DNA of 59,328 nt from Planctomycetia bacterium (GTDB lineage Bacteria > Planctomycetota > UBA8108 > SXIK01), in contig SXIK01000062.1 of the NCBI GenBank assembly GCA_005772855.1, positions 1 through 59,328 of the forward strand, read 5' to 3'. Numbering within the stretch: position 1 is the stretch's first letter; every line of letters begins with the position of its first letter. The position numbers and the translations under genes were made by a program. This document shows, in pieces, positions 15,915 to 25,081 of the stretch. The notes beneath the pieces are model-generated. The model ran no database searches and was not told the DNA's origin. It saw nothing but the letters and a program-made list of their open reading frames with translations.

Positions 15915-16682
15915 CTATTCAACTTTGTCCGGCTTCTTCTTCCGGGTAATGAGGGCTGCAAGGTAGCCGGCGCCGAAGCCGTTGTCGATATTCACGACGG
16001 CCACGCCCGCCGTGCACGAGTTCAACATGGTGAGGAGCGGAGCCAGTCCACCGAAGCTTGCACCGTAACCAATGCTGGTTGGAACAGCAATCACCGGGCA
16101 GTCGGCGAGCCCACCCACCACACTTGGCAGCGCTCCTTCCATGCCGGCCACGCAGATGATGCAGTCGGCCTCGTGAATCTTGTCAGCATTTGCAAGGAGT
16201 CGGTGAATCCCCGCGACTCCGACATCATAGGCCGTATTGACCACGTGGCCGAACATCTCGGCCGTCACGCGAGCTTCCTCGGCCACGGGAATGTCGGCGG
16301 TACCGGCGCAAAGCAGGAGAATGTTTCCGTCCGCGACCTCGGGCTTTCTCTTCTGGACTGTGACGCATCGGGCGAGCTTGTGGTACTCGGCCCTTGGGTG
16401 TGCATTCAGGACTGCCTCGGACGCCGCCTCGTCGGCCCGGGTGGCCAGGAGGTAGCTGGAGCGTTTCAGGATCGTGCGGGCGATCTCCGTGATGTCCTCC
16501 GGACGCTTTCCCTGGCAGAAAATGACCTCCGGGAAGCCGCACCGCAGGGATCGGTGGTGGTCCACGCGAGCGCAGGCGATGTCCTCGTAAGGCTCCATGC
16601 GAATCTGGCGCATGGCATCCTCGACGCTGATTTTTTGGGCCCACACCTTTTTCAAGATCTTGCGGAATTCGTCCTGAATCAT
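15915..16682 (-). CDS. larB: Nickel pincer cofactor biosynthesis protein LarB
   Basis: The ATG at 16682 is preceded by GAAAGGAAG and gives 255 residues; the longer frame to 16745 has no support. The C-terminal part is PurE-like: CAGTADIPVAEEA, VAGMEGALPSVVGGL and AVPTSIGYGASFGGL are hallmark sequences of LarB. LarB carboxylates and hydrolyses nicotinic acid adenine dinucleotide toward the pyridinium-biscarboxylate used in the nickel pincer cofactor of lactate racemase-type enzymes. larC and larE are absent from the window, so the complete pathway would have to lie elsewhere. It sits between tsaD and nnrD. Confidence 0.92.
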   Translation of the reverse strand: MIQDEFRKILKKVWAQKISVEDAMRQIRMEPYEDIACARVDHHRSLRCGFPEVIFCQGKRPEDITEIARTILKRSSYLLATRADEAASEAVLNAHPRAEYHKLARCVTVQKRKPEVADGNILLLCAGTADIPVAEEARVTAEMFGHVVNTAYDVGVAGIHRLLANADKIHEADCIICVAGMEGALPSVVGGLADCPVIAVPTSIGYGASFGGLAPLLTMLNSCTAGVAVVNIDNGFGAGYLAALITRKKKPDKVE

Positions 16683-16746
16683 TCCGTCTTCCTTTCGCGT
16701 GGTTCGTTCGGATTGTCTGCGTTGGCCGCCACCCGGGCGAGCCACG

Positions 16747-17832
16747 CTACCTCGCCATCATGGCGAAGGCATCGAGCCCGAGCCCGTCGCGCCGGCCTGT
16801 CTCCCAGAGCTCGAAGCCGAGGCCGGCAATCATGGCGGCGTTGTCGGTGCACAGTGGCAAATCGGGATACAGCGTCTCCACCGACTGTTCCTTCCGGAAG
16901 CTCTCGAGCCGGCTGCGGAGTCGGCGGTTGGCGGCAACTCCGCCAGCAATGATGGCAGAGCAGACACCGGCCTCCCGCCGCACTGCCCGACGCAGCTTCT
17001 CTATCATGACGTCCACGACGGCCTCCTCGAAAGCCGCTGCCACGTCGGCGACCTTCACGCCGGGCTTGAGCGACGCCTTGCGGCTCGAGTCCTGGCCCTT
17101 GGCATGGTAGAGGACTGCCGTCTTGATCCCCGAGAAGCTGAAGTCGAGCGAGCCCGGCTCGAGGAGGGTGCGCGGCAAATTGGCGCTCCTGGGGTCACCT
17201 CCCTCGGCTGCCCTCGAGATCACCGGGCCTCCCGGGTAACCGAGCCCGAGGATCTGGGCCGCCTTGTCAAAGGCCTCGCCAACGGCGTCGTCCTGCGTGG
17301 CGCCAATGAGGCGGTGCTCGGTCCAGCTGGAGGACGAATAGAGTGCGGTGTGGCCTCCCGAGACCACGAGCGCCACGGCTGGAAATATCGAGGCAGGCTC
17401 ACGCCTTGCGAAGGGCGGCTTCGCCCGCATCGCTGCCGAGTAAATGTGCGCGTGAATGTGATCCACGCCGACGAGGGGAATATCCCAGGCGAGCGCGAGC
17501 GACTTCGCTGCCGTGACGCCCACGAGGAGTGATCCGATGAGCCCTGGCCTGTTCGCCACAGTGATCAGGTCGAGGGCCGGGCGGCCGCTCCGTCGCTCGA
17601 GACCTGCCTCCTTGAGCGCACCGGCCACCATGCGAGTGATGACTTCCACGTGCGCGCGGCTCGCAAGCTCGGGCACGACTCCACCGAAGCGCTCGTGGAG
17701 CGGAATCTGGGAGAGGACGCAGTTCGAGAGGATGCGGTAGCCGTCTTCCACCACGGCCACGCCAGTCTCATCGCACGTGGATTCGATACCGAGGACGATC
17801 AACTTCGCCTGCCTTTCAGGACCGACCAACAT
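16747..17832 (-). CDS. tsaD: tRNA N6-adenosine threonylcarbamoyltransferase
   Basis: TsaD transfers the threonylcarbamoyl group to A37 of ANN-decoding tRNAs. The sequence has the family start VLGIESTCDETGVAVV, the iron-binding HIHAHIYSA, SGGHTALY, GEAFDKAAQILGL, GGVAANRRLR and CTDNAAMIA. I use the ATG at 17832 (361 residues); a TTG at 17802 with AAAGGCAGG before it is equally possible and nearer to the usual N-terminus. It heads the run of minus-strand housekeeping genes. Confidence 0.95.
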   Translation of the reverse strand: MLVGPERQAKLIVLGIESTCDETGVAVVEDGYRILSNCVLSQIPLHERFGGVVPELASRAHVEVITRMVAGALKEAGLERRSGRPALDLITVANRPGLIGSLLVGVTAAKSLALAWDIPLVGVDHIHAHIYSAAMRAKPPFARREPASIFPAVALVVSGGHTALYSSSSWTEHRLIGATQDDAVGEAFDKAAQILGLGYPGGPVISRAAEGGDPRSANLPRTLLEPGSLDFSFSGIKTAVLYHAKGQDSSRKASLKPGVKVADVAAAFEEAVVDVMIEKLRRAVRREAGVCSAIIAGGVAANRRLRSRLESFRKEQSVETLYPDLPLCTDNAAMIAGLGFELWETGRRDGLGLDAFAMMAR

Positions 17833-18042
17833 AAGGGCCGGTGGAGCAAACCACAAGACGATCTGCCTGCAAGATGAGGCGTCACCCTCCCCGTCGCGAT
17901 CCTGAAGAAGCTCCTGACCGCAAGGCTCTTCTCGACGGGCTTCCCATCGAAGGAGCCTGCATGGTTTTCCCTCGTGGGGTGACGCGTCAAGCTCCGGGTC
18001 CGATACTCCGGACAGATCGCGAGCACGGCCGTGTCCGCAGGC

Positions 18043-19089
18043 TCACGCCAGCCGGCCATTCGTGAGTGTCATGAAGGCTGTTTCGAGGTCTGCGAGCTCC
18101 TCGCGGAAGCTCGTGAAGCGGATGCGCTCGGCCACGAGGCGGTCGATGAGGCCAGCGATGTCCGGGTTGGCGGCGCTGAATCCAAATCTCACGGCACTGC
18201 CCAGCGACTCAACGACCTCTGCGCCGTCCTGCTTGCCAATCAGGTCGGCCGCACGCGGCGCGTCGCCCACCTCAAGAACATCGAGCACGAACATCCTCGT
18301 CGTGCGCAGACTCTTGAGGATTTCCTCAACGGCGCCAGCCGCCACGAGCTTGCCGGCCTCGATGATCCCGACCGTGTTGCACATCGTCGAAAGCTCCGTG
18401 AGGATGTGCGACGACACGATGATTGTCTTCCCCATGCGCTGAAGCTCCTTCAAGAGCTCCCGGAACTCGATCCGGGCTCGTGGGTCGAGGCCACTGGCGG
18501 GCTCGTCGAGGATGAGCACCTTCGGATCGTGGAGGAGCGTCTTCGCGAGGCAAGCGCGCTGCTTCATGCCACGTGAAAAGGCGCTCACCTGGTCGTCCTG
18601 CTTGGAGCCGAGGTCGGTGAGCTCGAGGACGTCGCGGATTACCATCTGCCGCTGCGTCCGGGGAATCTTGTACGCGGCGCCGAAGAAGTCGAGATACTCA
18701 AAGAGGGTCATGTTCTCGTAGACGCCGAAGGAGTCGGGCATGTAGCCGACGAGCTCCTTGATCTGCCGAGGGTTCTGGACGACGTCGATGCCAGCGATCA
18801 GTGCCTTGCCGCCCGTGGGGAGAAGGAGCGCGGAGAGGATGCGGAGCGTGGTCGTCTTGCCGGCGCCGTTGGGGCCAATGAAGCCGAAGATATCGCCTTC
18901 GTGGACTTCGAGATTGAGCTTCGAGAGCGCGGTCTTTCCCCCATAGGATTTCGAGAGTCCCTGGATGTGGACCTGCACCGGCGGCGGCGCGGCCTGGGGC
19001 GACTCGGCCCTGACATCAGCGGGAATCGGGAGCGGAACCTCACTCGACGGAGTCTCGGATGCAGACTGTTGGCTCATGACGCGGGACAT
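18043..19089 (-). CDS. ABC transporter ATP-binding protein (ABC-2 export type)
   Basis: 348 residues. Walker A is GPNGAGKTT, the signature is FSRGMKQR, Walker B is VLILDEPASGLDP and the switch His lies in IVSSHILTE. The signature differs from LSGGQ in the way usual for ABC-2/NatA-type exporters. Residues 1-40 are a Pro/Ser-rich extension, and the C-terminal 80 residues are the regulatory domain of this subfamily. No permease gene is adjacent, so its membrane partner must be encoded elsewhere. A second ATG four codons in (19077) is an alternative start. Confidence 0.9.
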   Translation of the reverse strand: MSRVMSQQSASETPSSEVPLPIPADVRAESPQAAPPPVQVHIQGLSKSYGGKTALSKLNLEVHEGDIFGFIGPNGAGKTTTLRILSALLLPTGGKALIAGIDVVQNPRQIKELVGYMPDSFGVYENMTLFEYLDFFGAAYKIPRTQRQMVIRDVLELTDLGSKQDDQVSAFSRGMKQRACLAKTLLHDPKVLILDEPASGLDPRARIEFRELLKELQRMGKTIIVSSHILTELSTMCNTVGIIEAGKLVAAGAVEEILKSLRTTRMFVLDVLEVGDAPRAADLIGKQDGAEVVESLGSAVRFGFSAANPDIAGLIDRLVAERIRFTSFREELADLETAFMTLTNGRLA

Positions 19090-19288
19090 TCTATACGCGG
19101 TCTACCCGCAGGCGAAGCCTTTCAGGCGCCAGCCAGGCGATGAAGAGGGTGCTGCGGCGGCTCAACTGCCGATCCGCCAGGAACGCCCGACGCGGCTGCG
19201 CCAATTGCCTCCCGGGCGCCCGCGAGAGTGGAGGAGGTTGTTACTGCTCCGTTGCAAAGAGCCCGGGAGCACAGTCTGATGGGGCGAC
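19090..19288. promoter_or_regulatory. Divergent intergenic region between ABC ATPase and propeller gene
   Basis: About 200 bases separate two divergent genes, so promoters for both should lie here. No convincing -35/-10 pair or operator was found by eye. A GGGGCGAC precedes the ATG at 19289. Confidence 0.3.
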
Positions 19289-20530
19289 ATGCGAATCCTC
19301 CTGTTGACGCTGTTTCTTGTACGTCTTGCTGCGACTGCGGCAGTCTTGAGGGCCGACTGGCCGCAGTTTCTCGGGCCGAGTCGGGACGGTACCGCAGCGG
19401 GCGAGAACATCGAGGACAACTGGGGCGGCTCCGGACCGCCTGTCATCTGGCGGTATGCGGTGGGCCATGGCCTCAGCGGGCCTGTAGTGTCCGCCGGACG
19501 CGTCGTCATCTCCTACCGAAGAGGCCCGGAGGAGATCATCGATCTGCTCGACTCCTCGAGCGGGAAGCGGATCTGGAGCGTCGGAGCTCCGTCAAGCTAC
19601 CGCGACTCCTTCGGCGCGGATGATGATGGACCGCGAGCGACGCCCACGATCGCGAACGGTCGAGTCTTCTCGCTTGGCGCCGAGGGCCAGGTGCTTGCGC
19701 TCGATTTTGAGTCCGGAAAAAAGATCTGGGGGCTCGACTCCCGGCAGGCTTTCAACGCTCCACTGGGCTACTTCGGCTTCGCATGCTCGCCCATCGTCGA
19801 GGGCAACAGTGTGCTCCTCAATATTGGCGGATCGAACGGTGCCGGCATCATCGCGCTCGATGTCTCGAGCGGAAAGCTCCTCTGGAAGGCGACGGACGAC
19901 GAGGCCAGCTATTCGTCGCCCGTGGTCGCGAATCTGGGCAAGTCGCGTGGTGTCCTCTTCTTTACTCGAAGCGGGCTTCGGGCTCTGGATCCCGCGACCG
20001 GATCGGTGCGCGCCAGCTTTCCCTGGCGAGCTCGTATCGCCGCGTCCGTCAATGCGGCGACGCCCATCGTCGCGAAGGAGCAGGTCTTCATCACCGCCAG
20101 CTACGGGACCGGAGCTGCACTCCTGAATTTCGAGGAGGGGACTTTGAGGCCCGCCTGGACCTCTGACGACGCGATCTCCGCCCACTACGCAACCCCGGTG
20201 CTGCGCAACGGTTTCCTCTACGGCCTCGACGGGCGTGTCGACTCGGGAAGCCCGAGCCTCAAGTGTATCGAGCTTGCGACCGGCAAGACTCGCTGGTCAA
20301 GGAAGGGGTTCGGGGGGGGATCGCTCCTCCTGGCAGGTGAGCGGATCCTGATCCTGACCGAGACGGGCGAGCTCGCAAGCGTGAAGGCCTCGCCCGACGC
20401 GTTCGAGGAAATAGCCCGGGCGAAGGTGATGGCTGGAGCGGTGCGAGCGCATCCAGCGCTCGTCGCCGGAAGACTCTACGCCCGCAACGCAAACGAGCTC
20501 GTGGTTCTCGACCTGAGCAAGAAACCGTGA
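19289..20530 (+). CDS. Exported PQQ-type beta-propeller repeat protein
   Basis: 413 residues with a signal peptide (MRILLLTLFLVRLAATAAVLRA). The mature start DWPQFLGPSRDG is very common in planctomycete PQQ-like proteins. Repeats such as GQVLALDFESGKKIWGLD, IIALDVSSGKLLWKA and CIELATGKTRWSRKG are the tryptophan-docking blades of an eight-bladed propeller. There is no dehydrogenase cofactor site that I can identify, so it is probably a scaffold or binding protein in the periplasm. It is followed 16 bases later by the EVE-domain gene. Confidence 0.88.
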   Translation: MRILLLTLFLVRLAATAAVLRADWPQFLGPSRDGTAAGENIEDNWGGSGPPVIWRYAVGHGLSGPVVSAGRVVISYRRGPEEIIDLLDSSSGKRIWSVGAPSSYRDSFGADDDGPRATPTIANGRVFSLGAEGQVLALDFESGKKIWGLDSRQAFNAPLGYFGFACSPIVEGNSVLLNIGGSNGAGIIALDVSSGKLLWKATDDEASYSSPVVANLGKSRGVLFFTRSGLRALDPATGSVRASFPWRARIAASVNAATPIVAKEQVFITASYGTGAALLNFEEGTLRPAWTSDDAISAHYATPVLRNGFLYGLDGRVDSGSPSLKCIELATGKTRWSRKGFGGGSLLLAGERILILTETGELASVKASPDAFEEIARAKVMAGAVRAHPALVAGRLYARNANELVVLDLSKKP

Positions 20531-20546
20531 GAAGGAAGCGCTGAGC

Positions 20547-20960
20547 ATGGCCCACTGGATCTTGAAGACGGACCCCGAGACCTACTCGTTCGACGATCTC
20601 CTTGGGGACAAGACGACCTACTGGGACGGGATAAGAAATCACCAGGCGCGAAACTACCTCGCCAGCATGATGCCGGGCGACGAATGCTTTATCTACCACT
20701 CGGGCCGCGATCCCGGAATCGTCGGCACGGCGCGGATCTTGAAGGCCGCATATTGTGACCCGAAGGCCGACGACCCGCGATGGCTGAATGTTGACTTGAT
20801 GGTTCTGAAACGGCTCGCCCGAGTCGTGCCCCTTGCGGAGATCCGGGAACACAAGGCACTCGCGCAGATGGCGCTCCTCAGGCAGAGTCGGCTCAGCGTA
20901 TCTCCCGTGACGGACGCCGAGTGGAAGGCCGTGCTTGAGCTCGCCTCGGAGGGCGATTGA
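20547..20960 (+). CDS. EVE domain protein (modified-base-binding PUA-like fold)
   Basis: 137 residues, a single-domain EVE protein. MAHWILKTDPETYSFDDL, TYWDGIRNHQARNYL and MMPGDECFIYHSG match the conserved blocks of the family, whose members bind modified nucleobases in DNA or RNA. A GAAGGAAG lies before the ATG. It lies between the propeller gene and the DUF455 gene, all on the plus strand. No restriction or modification gene is nearby, so a defence role is not indicated. Confidence 0.92.
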   Translation: MAHWILKTDPETYSFDDLLGDKTTYWDGIRNHQARNYLASMMPGDECFIYHSGRDPGIVGTARILKAAYCDPKADDPRWLNVDLMVLKRLARVVPLAEIREHKALAQMALLRQSRLSVSPVTDAEWKAVLELASEGD

Positions 20961-20999
20961 GTAGGCGTCCCCGGGCACGCTGATCTCGTCCAACGAGCC

Positions 21000-21809
21000 A
21001 TGGAGCTTCGCGATTTTGCGCTCGGGGTTGTTCTCGCGGAAAGTCTCGAGGGGAAACTCTCGAGACCCCGGGGCCGGATCACGGACAACCATCCTGGTGT
21101 CGCCCTTCGAATCGAGCAGCCGGGCCGACCCGAGAACCTGAGGATCTCGCCGGCCAGAGCCGTTCGAGTGCCCTCGAAGATGGGCATGGTCGATCCAAGG
21201 CAGCGCGTACGAATCCTGCACGCCTTCGCGAACCATGAGCTGCAGGCAGTGGAGCTTTTCGCCTGGGCGATCCTTGCCTTCCCGGACGCTCCAGGCGACT
21301 TTCGAGAAGGACTGAAGTTGCGGACGATCGAGGAACAGCGACACACGCTCCTGTACCAGGCGCGCCTCGGGGAGCTTGGGGTCCGGCTCGGCGAGTTTCC
21401 CGTCACCGGCTACTTCTGGAGCAAGTCGTCCACCTGGACCACGCCCCTTCGGTTCATCTGCGCGATGGGCCTCACCTTCGAGAACGCCAATCTGGACCAC
21501 ACGGCGGAGTACGCCGCGGCCGCGAGGGCCGCCGGCGATGAGCGGACAGCACGTCTCCTCGAGCGGGTGGGAGAGGACGAGATCGGCCACGTTCGCTTCG
21601 CTGTCAAATGGCTGGAGCGTTGGAAAGCGCCGGGCGAGAGCCTCTGGAGCGCCTACTCATCAAGCCTTAGCTGGCCCCTGCGCGGCGCCCTGGCTCGCGG
21701 GAAGGATTTTCGCGCCGAGGAGCGAAGGCGGGCCGGGCTGGACGAGGAGTTCATCGCGTCCCTTGCCAGGGCGGATCGAGGGGATCCGTTGAAGAGGCCG
21801 GGGTCATGA
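21000..21809 (+). CDS. DUF455 family ferritin-like protein
   Basis: 269 residues. A four-helix ferritin-like core is indicated by paired metal-ligand motifs: ANHELQAVELFAW, TIEEQRHTLLY, GLTFENANLDHTAEY and VGEDEIGHVRFAVKW, which can supply Glu and His ligands for a di-iron site. DUF455 (PF04305) proteins have no settled biochemical role. The stop overlaps the start of the next gene (ATGA at 21806-21809), which suggests a functional pair with the ATP-grasp-like protein. Confidence 0.87.
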   Translation: MELRDFALGVVLAESLEGKLSRPRGRITDNHPGVALRIEQPGRPENLRISPARAVRVPSKMGMVDPRQRVRILHAFANHELQAVELFAWAILAFPDAPGDFREGLKLRTIEEQRHTLLYQARLGELGVRLGEFPVTGYFWSKSSTWTTPLRFICAMGLTFENANLDHTAEYAAAARAAGDERTARLLERVGEDEIGHVRFAVKWLERWKAPGESLWSAYSSSLSWPLRGALARGKDFRAEERRRAGLDEEFIASLARADRGDPLKRPGS

Positions 21810-22987
21810 GCGAAACACGACGCCTGCTGGTGGGCAACCTCGGCTGCGAGGCCGAGTTCGGCGGACGACCCCTGAAGCTTGCTGTGGAGCGTACGATCTC
21901 GCTCTTTGCCACGGCGCTGCGCGCTTTTGCGGCGGACGGCGACGAATTGTGGACACCGGCCCTTGTGCCGGAGGAGCGGGTCGCCGACGTTCCCGGGCTC
22001 GCTCGGCCGAAGCTCCTCAGCGGCAGCCTCTCGCGTCTTCGCCCATCCCGGGTCCTCGCCTGGTGCTCGAGCGCGAGCGTCACCGGCCTCTGCAAGCCCT
22101 GTGGGCAGAGGGAGCCCGCCTTGAATCGGGCGGTCGCGCCTTCATCGTTACGCGCAGCGAGCCTGCTCTGGGAGATCCCCGCTGCCGCGCCGCTTGCGGC
22201 GGCCCGAGCCAACCACAGAAGCTTCGCCCTCGAGTCCGCAGAGGCGCTGGGAGTCAAGCTCGAAGGAGCTGCGCTTCTTCGCTCCGTCTCCGAGCTCGAG
22301 CGACACCTCGCCTTGACCGCCACAGGCTCTTCGCCAAGCGGAGCCTGGGTCTTGAAGGCGCCTTACTCGACCTCCGGACGCGACCGGGTGCGATCGCAGG
22401 GGGCGCTCGTTTCTGAAGCTGTTCGGGGGTCGGTCGAGCGGCTCTTCAAGGCCAGTGGCGAGGTCCTCTTTGAGCCATGGCTGGATCGCACAGCGGACTT
22501 CGGCGTCTGCGCTGTCGTCGCTCCCGGATTTCTGCATGTGTTTCCTCCGCACGAGCTGGAGGTGGACAGCCGTGGCTCGTTTCGAGGCATCCGGTTGAGG
22601 TCCACGACGCTGTCGCCAGCGGAACGGAGCCTCCTCGACTCGACCGCGAACGGCGTGGCCGGACGTCTCCGGATCATGGGTTACTCGGGTCCCTTCGGCA
22701 TCGACGCCTGGCGCCATCGCGATCGTGACGGTCGAGAACGATTCCATCCGCTTGGCGAGATCAACGCCCGCATGACGTTTGGCCTGGTTGCGAGGGCCCT
22801 TGAGGAGCGGCTTGTCGACGTGGGCCGTATCCCAGGCTCGAGTTCGTTACGGCTCCGCTTCGGGAAGGGCGCCGAGCTGGAAAGACAAACTCAAGTTTCC
22901 CCGGAGCTCATACCACTCGTGAGCCCGCTGGGGCCTGCGTCAGAGGCCGTGTGGGTCGAGATCTGTTCGCAGCGGCCCACAGGGTGA
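21806..22987 (+). CDS. ATP-grasp-like ligase of unknown substrate
   Basis: 393 residues, translationally coupled to the DUF455 gene. The centre has GAWVLKAPYSTSGRDRV, matching the ATP-grasp lysine and glycine-rich loop, then VLFEPWLDRTADFGV, and near the C-terminus HPLGEINARMTFGLVARAL, which fits the metal-binding Glu-x-Asn motif. The N-terminal 150 residues look like a pre-ATP-grasp domain. Ligases of this fold join a carboxylate to an amine or thiol. The substrate is unknown. The last 80 bases overlap the convergent gene on the other strand. Confidence 0.65.
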   Translation: MSETRRLLVGNLGCEAEFGGRPLKLAVERTISLFATALRAFAADGDELWTPALVPEERVADVPGLARPKLLSGSLSRLRPSRVLAWCSSASVTGLCKPCGQREPALNRAVAPSSLRAASLLWEIPAAAPLAAARANHRSFALESAEALGVKLEGAALLRSVSELERHLALTATGSSPSGAWVLKAPYSTSGRDRVRSQGALVSEAVRGSVERLFKASGEVLFEPWLDRTADFGVCAVVAPGFLHVFPPHELEVDSRGSFRGIRLRSTTLSPAERSLLDSTANGVAGRLRIMGYSGPFGIDAWRHRDRDGRERFHPLGEINARMTFGLVARALEERLVDVGRIPGSSSLRLRFGKGAELERQTQVSPELIPLVSPLGPASEAVWVEICSQRPTG

Positions 22988-23393
22988 CGAGGGCACGCAC
23001 GAAGTCGGCGCCGGCCAGAGCGGCGAGCACGAGCAGCGGGTGGGGAGGGCCTGGAATCCAGGCCAGCGCCGCCGATCGAAGAAAAACCAGGCTCAGGTAC
23101 TGTGGTTCGCCCAGAATGGCGAAGTAAAGGCGAAGTGGAAGCGCAAGCCAGGTGACGCGGCGCACACCCCTCGTACCACAAAAGAGCAGCCACGAGGACC
23201 CCAGAAGCGTCAAGACCAGCAAGATTCGCAAGGCCTCGGTGACCGCGACGATGCCTGGAAATTCGCCCGGCGTCCACAGGAAGCGTACCGCCTGGCGAAC
23301 CGAGGGGAGGCCATGCCAGAGGACTATCCACGCGTCGAGTGCCGCCAGGATGACAAGGATCGAGCGCCTCAAGGAGGGGGCGGGTTGTAGCAC
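22908..23393 (-). CDS. Small hypothetical membrane protein
   Basis: 161 residues with three or four hydrophobic segments: SILVILAALDAWIVLW, IVAVTEALRILLVLTLLGSS, VTWLALPLRLYFAI and LLVLAALAGADFVRALV. No family is recognised. Its start overlaps the end of the dockerin-tailed gene by 25 bases, as expected for an operon member, while its 3' end overlaps the convergent ATP-grasp-like gene by 80 bases. The membrane pattern and operon position favour a real gene, with moderate confidence. Confidence 0.5.
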   Translation of the reverse strand: MLQPAPSLRRSILVILAALDAWIVLWHGLPSVRQAVRFLWTPGEFPGIVAVTEALRILLVLTLLGSSWLLFCGTRGVRRVTWLALPLRLYFAILGEPQYLSLVFLRSAALAWIPGPPHPLLVLAALAGADFVRALVTLWAAANRSRPTRPLTQAPAGSRVV

Positions 23394-24289
23394 TTTGCGT
23401 AGAAATCACAGGTGAGATCGTCCGGCGTCCCATCGTGGCCGCAATCGGGAAACGGCGCTGCCGGGGGAGCACCGCCCACAAAGAGATATTGAGCGAGACC
23501 TATCGCATCCGTCAACTCGATCCTTCCCGAATCGTTGACGTCCGCGCTCTTGAGGCACTCCGGCTCGCCGCCCCCCCCGAAGAGATAAAGCACGATCAGT
23601 ACGCAGTCGGAAATGTCCGACTCCTCATCGCCGTTGGAATCGCCACGGATGAGGCCGCCGATGACGGGGGGGCTGAAGGTCGCAAGGCAGCTCCCCACGA
23701 TCAGCTCGGGTGCCGGCTCGGCGCTCCTGACCACACCGATCACCGTGTAGAGGTGCTCGCCGGAGAGCGGCTCCTCCTCGAAGTGCGTCGCTGTGGGTTC
23801 AAGCTCGCCGACAAGGTCTCCATCCCGCTCGATACGAATGGAGACCACTGCTGGGTTGGGCGAGAGGTGCTCCCAGGTGATGGCGACCCTGGGTGGCACG
23901 GCGACTCCCCCAAGGACATTGCAGAAGATGCCCTGCGCGCCTGGCACATCTGCCTCGCACTCAACGGCGGTAATGAGTGTCGGCTGTTCCCCGCCAGGGT
24001 CCTTCAGGAAAATCTCGAGCCGGTAGGTGTGCTTCCCGGAAGGCGCCGCGATGTCGTGGTATCGGCTGGAATCGGCCGCAAGCAGCGCCAGGAGGAGGCC
24101 ATCACGCAGGAGCGTGGCCCCGTGCACGCTCTCCGAGATTCCGAGCTCGTCCCAGGTGAGCGTGACTGCGTCGCCGCGTTGCTCGCAATGGAGGAAGTGA
24201 GGTCCAGGCAAGGGGTGGGTGGCTTCCAAATCCAGCGCGAATCCCAGGCACGAGAGAAGCACCATCGAGACTTGCAGCGATCGACTCAT
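23369..24289 (-). CDS. Secreted fibronectin-III-like protein with dockerin-like tail
   Basis: 306 residues with signal peptide MSRSLQVSMVLLSCLGFALDLEA. Two beta-sandwich repeats follow (about 27-110 and 113-205; VTLTWDELG and RVAITWEHLS mark equivalent strands). From about residue 213 comes a dockerin-like pair, RGDSNGDEESDISDCV and SADVNDSGRIELTDAI, each with Ca-binding-loop spacing and followed by an LFxGG-type helix end. A Pro-rich tail closes the protein. GAAGGAAA precedes the ATG. It is likely exported; dockerin-like tails of this kind are common in planctomycetes without known cohesins. Confidence 0.8.
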   Translation of the reverse strand: MSRSLQVSMVLLSCLGFALDLEATHPLPGPHFLHCEQRGDAVTLTWDELGISESVHGATLLRDGLLLALLAADSSRYHDIAAPSGKHTYRLEIFLKDPGGEQPTLITAVECEADVPGAQGIFCNVLGGVAVPPRVAITWEHLSPNPAVVSIRIERDGDLVGELEPTATHFEEEPLSGEHLYTVIGVVRSAEPAPELIVGSCLATFSPPVIGGLIRGDSNGDEESDISDCVLIVLYLFGGGGEPECLKSADVNDSGRIELTDAIGLAQYLFVGGAPPAAPFPDCGHDGTPDDLTCDFYAKCYNPPPP

Positions 24290-25081
24290 GGGAGGTTTCC
24301 TTCAACTTTGGCGTCATCGCCCGGCCCTGTAGGCACGATAGCACGTGGACCTGGGCCTATCCACCCCCCTCCGGGATCTCTTCCCAAAGAGTTGGGGTGA
24401 GTCCTGGCGGATCTCACCCAGGTTTCAGCTTTGAGCCCTTCAACCTGGCGCGTTCCCGCCAGGGGAACCCTGAGCTGCCTGCACGCGCTTGCCAACCCCG
24501 CGAAATCAAGAGTGCCGTGCAGAAGGCGCTGGTGTGCTTCCTCAAAAAAAACACCGGTCCCGCCAGCTCCCGGGCCTCGTGAACGAGATGGAAGGATCGC
24601 GCGATCTCAAGGGCGAGACTCCGGCGAACAATCTGCCGGCGGGCAGCAGTGGCGTCGGCCCGGGCAGACGCCTCCTCGGTCCGGGAGCGTCTCCGGCCTC
24701 CATCGTAGAGCCTGATGCTTCCCGTGAGGCCTGTCCTGAAATTCCAGGTGACGCCGGGGTCATTGAAGTCGAGCGTACTGTTAAAGCACCGTTGTTCGAA
24801 GGTGGAGCCAAAGGTCTGGGAGGGGACATTCGTTTGCGTGAACCGCTCGAGCAGCTGCAGTGCGGGCCAGTAGTGCGAGTAGGCCTTGTCGATCGCGGAA
24901 CGCGCATAGTCAAGGCGTTGCACCGCGACCTGGACGTCGGGGTTGTTCCTGAGAGCCAGTGCCAGGGCGGAATCGATCTTGAGTGGACCGCGCGGCGTTT
25001 CCGGCTCCAGAGGGAGGGGCTCCTCGACGGCACAACCGACCTTCAGGACCAGGATCAGCGCGCGACGCTGGCGCGTCTCAT
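24286..25081 (-). pseudogene. TolC-like outer-membrane efflux lipoprotein gene, frameshifted and short
   Basis: The ATG at 25081 overlaps the stop of the transporter gene (ATGA), but the frame stops after eight codons. Shifting frame gives ALILVLKVGCAVEEP, a lipoprotein signal with a cysteine, then ALALALRNNPDVQVAVQRLD and YDGGRRRSRTEEASARADA, which match outer-membrane efflux (TolC/OEP) proteins. Near 24544-24551 a run of eight A (plus strand) coincides with loss of homology; restoring frame there gives EEAHQRLLHGTLDFAGL and a frame ending in an ATGA overlap with the next gene. Even corrected it is about 265 residues, well short of the usual 400 or more. Pseudogene or sequencing error. Confidence 0.6.

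Follow-up and report, generated by a model that had tools for sequence, protein, structure and literature searches.

In the 59,328-nucleotide stretch analysed here (the window), which is one contig of a 5.03 Mb planctomycete draft genome in 244 contigs, the end of a gene encoding a DUF455 protein overlaps the start of a gene encoding a candidate ATP-grasp ligase. This arrangement raises the question of whether the two proteins act together and, if so, in what chemistry and on what kind of molecule. A preliminary description of this DNA had proposed that a diiron oxygenase and a ligase jointly make or modify an amide-linked molecule. Its coordinates for both open reading frames (ORFs), and for the ATGA that they share, were recovered as claimed:

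21000..21809 (+), DUF455 (PF04305) ferritin-like protein, 269 aa
21806..22987 (+), ATP-grasp-like ligase, 393 aa
21806..21809 (+), ATGA stop/start overlap common to both genes, read from the sequence
Within the ligase (+), putative site residues K184 (nucleotide loop), E223, D300 and E318-x-N320-x-R322, from a 66-row alignment

The literature searched, which has partial coverage, gives no function for DUF455. No publication on the DUF455-ligase pair was found in it either, an earlier mention being possible under that coverage; a 2009 survey of amidoligases might mention the pair.

Predicted diiron and ATP-grasp sites

Assignment of the first gene to DUF455 was borne out by a PF04305 match of 156 bits (E 1.7e-45; Pfam cut-off 34.3). 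The likely diiron ligand set noted at the outset, E80, E112xxH115, E161 and E194xxH197 (spaced E-32-ExxH-46-E-33-ExxH in the window sequence), is kept here and in orthologues too, being identical in all non-gapped rows of a 64-row alignment (62 such rows for E80, 64 each for E112 and H115, and 63 each for E161, E194 and H197). Bacterioferritin, a haem-containing iron-storage protein that assembles into a 24-mer cage, carries the same Glu/ExxH/Glu/ExxH ligand set. H79, N164 and W140 were also identical in all non-gapped rows, and R242, G246 and F251, which lie in the C-terminal part of the protein, were invariant across 14 rows. An AlphaFold model built from two sequences (mean pLDDT 75, pTM 0.78) predicted a four-helix bundle, comprising helices 66-93, 99-125, 149-177 and 181-208, that bears all of the ligands.

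In the PDB, a sequence match below E 0.001 was obtained only for the bacterioferritin 1nf4 (E 7e-4). When a profile of 14 DUF455 relatives was compared with the PDB, the best match was EncC, a ferritin-like cargo protein (E 0.005), with toluene monooxygenase at E 0.014 and weaker matches to ribonucleotide reductase and aldehyde decarbonylase; the EncC and toluene monooxygenase matches do not tell iron storage from an oxygenase. Bacterioferritins headed the Foldseek list, in which all matches lay above E 0.001. VIA-align placed 5ux1 first (Z 14.9, rmsd 2.7, 167 aligned, 15% identity), with Dps, bacterioferritins and further proteins of the aldehyde-deformylating-oxygenase type at Z 13.5-14.7. 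Since helical bundles can reach Z 13.5-14.9 by chance, only the fold class was taken from this comparison. All Foldseek and VIA-align matches listed were ferritin-like, in a list that cannot prove a haem-oxygenase-like fold absent. The DUF455 protein of the window is a predicted ferritin-like diiron four-helix protein.

The ligase was recognised through its relatives. With E values up to 1 allowed, the window protein itself matched no Pfam family, and E 0.27 was not bettered in NCBIfam. When 14 relatives were combined into a profile, this matched the ATP-grasp peptide ligase 8ynd (E 2.6e-6), PGM1 (3wvq; E 3e-4) and the propargylglycine-glutamate ligase 8yi6 (E 0.011) in the PDB, the single matched stretches being short and weaker (i-Evalues of 1.1e-4, 0.47 and 0.022, respectively). 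One of the 14 members matched PF02222 (E 1e-5, just below the cut-off), and a PreAtp-grasp match was likewise found in only one of the 14 (E 0.015). A structural model of the ligase, built from two sequences, was too poor for its fold to be read (mean pLDDT 36). Judged by its family profile, the window protein is probably an ATP-grasp-like ligase.

In agreement with the preliminary description, the ATP-grasp lysine loop and the E-x-N motif were largely retained across the 66 ligase rows: position 184 was Lys in 55 rows and Arg in 10, position 318 was Glu in 53 and Asp in 12, and both N320 and R322 were kept in 65. D300 and G295 were kept in all 66 rows, and E223 was replaced by Gln in five. 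The substitutions at positions 184 and 318 were concentrated by lineage, with all of the Arg184 rows coming from one family (f35) and ten of the Asp318 rows from another (f29). Some groups carry conservative replacements at the putative ligase sites, which are otherwise retained, and the Arg and Asp rows suggest that certain clades may use ATP differently. Loci of f35 (e.g., L150, L152, L154 and L156) also have Asp in place of G326, the glycine that follows E-x-N-x-R, in nine rows in which the Asn and Arg of the motif are kept.

Co-occurrence, overlap and fusion in Planctomycetota

The distribution of the two genes was determined across a main sample of 392 Planctomycetota genomes, the phylum to which whole-genome searches were limited, using PF04305 (E up to 1e-8) for DUF455 and the profile of 14 ligase-like proteins (E up to 1e-10) for the ligase. 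A ligase-like protein was found in 95 of the 392 genomes and DUF455 in 119, with both in 93. DUF455 was therefore present in 93 of the 95 ligase genomes (Fisher p 5e-63, a value that ignores kinship between genomes). In 63 of these 93 genomes the DUF455 gene lay directly upstream of the ligase gene on the same strand, and in 13 of the 63 the two formed a single open frame. A smaller set made up of the window's own genome and its relatives (n = 59) held a ligase-like protein in 15 genomes and DUF455 in 19. In many Planctomycetota, the two genes occur together, usually adjoining and sometimes fused. Conservation of the pair, named beforehand (with retention of key ligands) as a point on which the proposal could fail, was found within this one phylum.

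The exceptions were few outside a single lineage. Both genes were present and non-adjacent in 30 genomes, 27 of which belong to f29, where the genes lie on different contigs or far apart; outside f29, 63 of the 66 genomes with both genes have them adjacent. The remaining three all involve contig ends, with both genes at contig ends in G168 and G354 and the DUF455 gene running into a contig end in G090. Only two genomes encode the ligase without DUF455. The locus of one, G155, is cut upstream by a contig end, and in the other, G188, DUF455 was not found in an assembly listed as 90% complete, in which 7.5 kb upstream of the ligase was read. Conversely, DUF455 occurred without the ligase in 26 genomes, 23 of them in families f15 (17), f70 (2) and f51 (4). 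In the other three (G002, G169 and G229), DUF455 stands at a contig end and scores 266-328 bits on a profile of ligase-linked DUF455 proteins, so that the ligase may simply be missing from these assemblies.

To describe the junction between the genes, 53 loci with both genes were read, the window included and start codons presumed. An ATGA overlap was found at 14 loci, a GTGA overlap at 14 and a fusion at 11; thus an ATGA or GTGA overlap was present in 28 of the 42 unfused loci. The remaining 14 loci either have possible ligase starts near the DUF455 stop or have a frame that is broken, or without a usual start, at that place. Profile searches confirmed a two-domain protein in 11 of the 13 fused frames (all except G216 and G227), with DUF455 N-terminal in all 11. 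The clearest fusion is L052:8318-10447 (-), which spans 710 aa from stop to stop and gives a fusion protein of 696 aa. In G004, by contrast, the DUF455 gene (L044:7958-9132 (+)) is divided between two frames, perhaps through a frameshift or an assembly error.

A survey for linked genes had been recommended, and it upheld the linkage of the pair while yielding no further gene that recurs widely. Neighbouring ORFs were clustered from 55 loci, namely the 53 that carry the pair together with those of G188 and G155, and from 22 loci of the unlinked family, which represent 11 of its 27 genomes. No common third partner gene emerged, as only the pair genes and ORFs antisense to them recurred widely. 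The widest other clusters covered six genomes in six families, a cluster that holds the window gene at 18043-19089, and nine genomes in three families. In the unlinked family, once ORFs antisense to the DUF455 gene are set aside, nothing else was found in more than five of the 11 loci. Likewise, no Pfam family occurred in more than three of the 132 nearest neighbour ORFs. These were drawn from 136 candidates, four long ones being omitted, and came from crude gene calling in which some ORFs may be spurious.

Descent of the linked genes

Is the DUF455 that accompanies the ligase distinct from other members of its family? A tree was built from 75 DUF455 domains, comprising 53 linked rows, 11 rows of the unlinked family f29 and 11 rows without a ligase link, the last made up of eight of the 23 f15, f70 and f51 genomes and three second copies from ligase-carrying genomes. 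The 53 linked and 11 unlinked-family rows were split from the 11 others by one branch of length 1.91 (support 95/100); G044b, among those others, forms a very long branch. The window protein belongs to the DUF455 family, within which the proteins linked to a ligase group separately from these 11 rows. The linked-DUF455 profile (14 members), which favours its own clade by construction, gave 178-421 bits for the loci read, fragments included, and 132 or less for the others tested. The unlinked family is nested within the linked group, its exact position being moderately supported (81/82), and on this basis the loss of linkage looks secondary. In the same tree, ten of the fused rows group in a single clade (support 100/97), apart from the fused G386, which implies either two or more origins of fusion or its loss.

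Pairwise distances among DUF455 proteins correlated with those among ligases (r 0.71, against a permuted maximum of 0.16; 57 of 64 pairs, seven short ones having been dropped), a correlation of which shared genome descent alone may account for much.

Relatives of the two proteins were also sought more widely. Among plasmid records, distant ligase relatives that align over most of the length were found in Parabacteroides distasonis (127 bits; L119:7527-8735 (+), adjoining a DUF349 gene), in Prevotella (105 bits; L191:4938-6101) and on two Streptomyces plasmids (111 and 101 bits; L120:7512-10556 and L192:5231-6810). A PreAtp-grasp match was obtained for both Streptomyces relatives, above the cut-off in one case (E 4.3e-21) and under it in the other (E 8.3e-4). 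Each belongs to a cluster that includes a stand-alone gene for an acyl carrier protein, and one of these clusters also holds a PLP decarboxylase. A profile search of these four stretches from Bacteroidota and Streptomyces did not find DUF455. The ligase family extends beyond the pair, and the Bacteroidota relatives, being without DUF455 in the stretches searched, indicate that it does not always need DUF455. For DUF455, plasmid records held distant members from Alphaproteobacteria and Geobacillus, and in the annotation of two such neighbourhoods no ligase was named beside them. The DUF455 protein had no match in phage records, and no relatives were found in the viral contigs searched.

Possible chemistry of the pair and known diiron-ligase systems

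Fusion, gene overlap and co-occurrence even without linkage strongly support joint action, and the two proteins very probably serve a single small pathway. As to its chemistry, the site residues and family matches suggest a two-enzyme unit that would couple ATP-dependent acyl or amide ligation to diiron oxidation of the same molecule, a reading to which we give an even chance. The ATP-grasp protein would convert a carboxylate, most likely on an amino acid or short peptide, into its acyl phosphate, and would then join the activated group to an amine (or thiol). The DUF455 diiron site, with O2, would oxidise the substrate or product of the ligase by hydroxylation, desaturation or oxidative cleavage, and overlap or fusion would keep both activities together, probably for equal dosage or channelling. 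With no third gene recurring widely, primary metabolism should supply the substrates, and the product is probably retained inside the cell. More tentatively, and with the odds somewhat against it, this oxidative amide-ligase module may produce, within the basic metabolism of many Planctomycetota, an intracellular metabolite or an aminoacyl modification that has yet to be described. What was observed is conservation within one phylum, gene overlap, fusion, preserved ligands and a linked clade; from these we infer catalysis and the sequence of its steps, oxidation as the role of DUF455, an amide linkage, the fate of the product in the cell, the substrate and, for DUF455, oxygenase rather than ferroxidase chemistry. 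Of the initial proposal, joint action gained strong support from the 13 fused frames and the overlap, and the oxygenase and the amide product stand as a fit by family resemblance.

Several other readings of the pair were weighed against this one. The ligase could modify a protein or peptide with an amino acid, following a RimK-like logic, and DUF455 could oxidise the added residue or the one beside it. The lack of a recurring transport or resistance gene near the pair would fit a housekeeping target within the cell; however, no recurring small substrate gene was found beside the pair, and the solved proteins matched by the ligase profile are named peptide or amino-acid ligases, which leaves protein modification unlikely. 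DUF455 could instead be a ferroxidase or iron-handling partner, similar to bacterioferritin, of a ligase that makes an iron-binding or antioxidant peptide. That 1nf4 was the sole PDB sequence match under E 0.001, that bacterioferritins lead the Foldseek list and that EncC was the best PDB match of the DUF455 profile all speak for such a role. We nevertheless regard it as distinctly unlikely, as the conserved H79, N164, W140, R242, G246 and F251 lie outside the ligand set and suggest a binding pocket, and fusion to a ligase would presumably hinder cage assembly.

A carrier-bound pathway, in which the ligase loads an amino acid onto the thiol of an acyl carrier protein and DUF455 oxidises the bound group, draws on the stand-alone acyl carrier protein genes beside the two Streptomyces ligase relatives. 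BtrJ is a ligase that loads an amino acid in this manner, and these Streptomyces clusters recall the BtrJ/BtrK/BtrI arrangement of butirosin. PMC11405602 names BtrJ, BtrK and BtrI as enzymes of the aminohydroxybutyrate side chain. However, PP-binding (PF00550) was not found in at least three of the 132 neighbour ORFs, and the carrier would have to come from elsewhere in the genome, which makes this pathway improbable for the pair. Finally, the two proteins might simply be co-transcribed and serve unrelated steps, as the genes lie far apart or on different contigs in the 27 genomes of one family. The 13 fused frames, and the presence of both genes even where they are unlinked, argue against this, and we consider it very improbable.

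The preferred reading, a ligase and a diiron oxidase acting on one molecule, has counterparts among known systems. The beta-ethynylserine (Bes) pathway employs a diiron oxidase together with an ATP-grasp amino-acid ligase. In mangotoxin (Mbo), likewise, a diiron enzyme is genetically linked to an ATP-grasp ligase; PMC13185094 reports 1447 haem-oxygenase-like diiron oxidases near ATP-grasp ligases, with MboA of one such cluster characterised. Predicted operons of diiron oxygenases with peptide-bond-forming (peptide-ligase) enzymes are also described in PMC2922099. Unlike the Mbo and Bes diiron enzymes, which have a haem-oxygenase-like fold and belong to multi-gene clusters, the protein described here is a ferritin-like DUF455 member, with fusions and no widely recurring third gene. 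If the proposed chemistry is correct, partnerships of diiron oxidases and ATP-grasp enzymes would extend from the haem-oxygenase-like to the ferritin-like fold, and from secondary-metabolite clusters to apparently conserved metabolism. A fixed partner, and both domains in one chain, offer a direct way to test DUF455 chemistry.

Each protein also shows partial likeness to single solved enzymes. Similarity of the pair's ligase to the Mbo/Bes type is seen in the weak match of its profile to 8yi6 (E 0.011), and 8ynd has an EINAR motif in common with it. The profile aligns with both the N-terminal and the ATP-grasp parts of PGM1 (3wvq), each weakly; unlike the PGM1-type (PreAtp-grasp) ligases, the window protein is without any Pfam match. 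Aldehyde-deformylating oxygenase resembles the DUF455 protein in its ferritin-like diiron fold, and 5ux1, a protein with this activity, was the best VIA-align match, but at 15% identity and with a Z near the helical-bundle background, tied with Dps and bacterioferritin rows.

A role in anti-phage defence was considered and set aside, PADLOC giving no match for either window protein or for the L052 fusion. Rfam gave zero matches in 19000-24500 of the window. Upstream of the pair, two adjoining genes at 15915-17856 (-) are by their motifs presumably LarB-like and TsaD-like, and we take the gene at 18043-19089, again by motif, to encode an ABC-transporter ATPase. An EVE-domain gene (20547-20960 (+); PF01878, E 1.1e-42), absent from the recurring neighbour clusters listed, has its stop 39 bases upstream of the DUF455 gene. 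Downstream, on the opposite strand, the protein encoded at 23372-24289 (-) matches the dockerin type I family (PF00404, E 5.4e-6).
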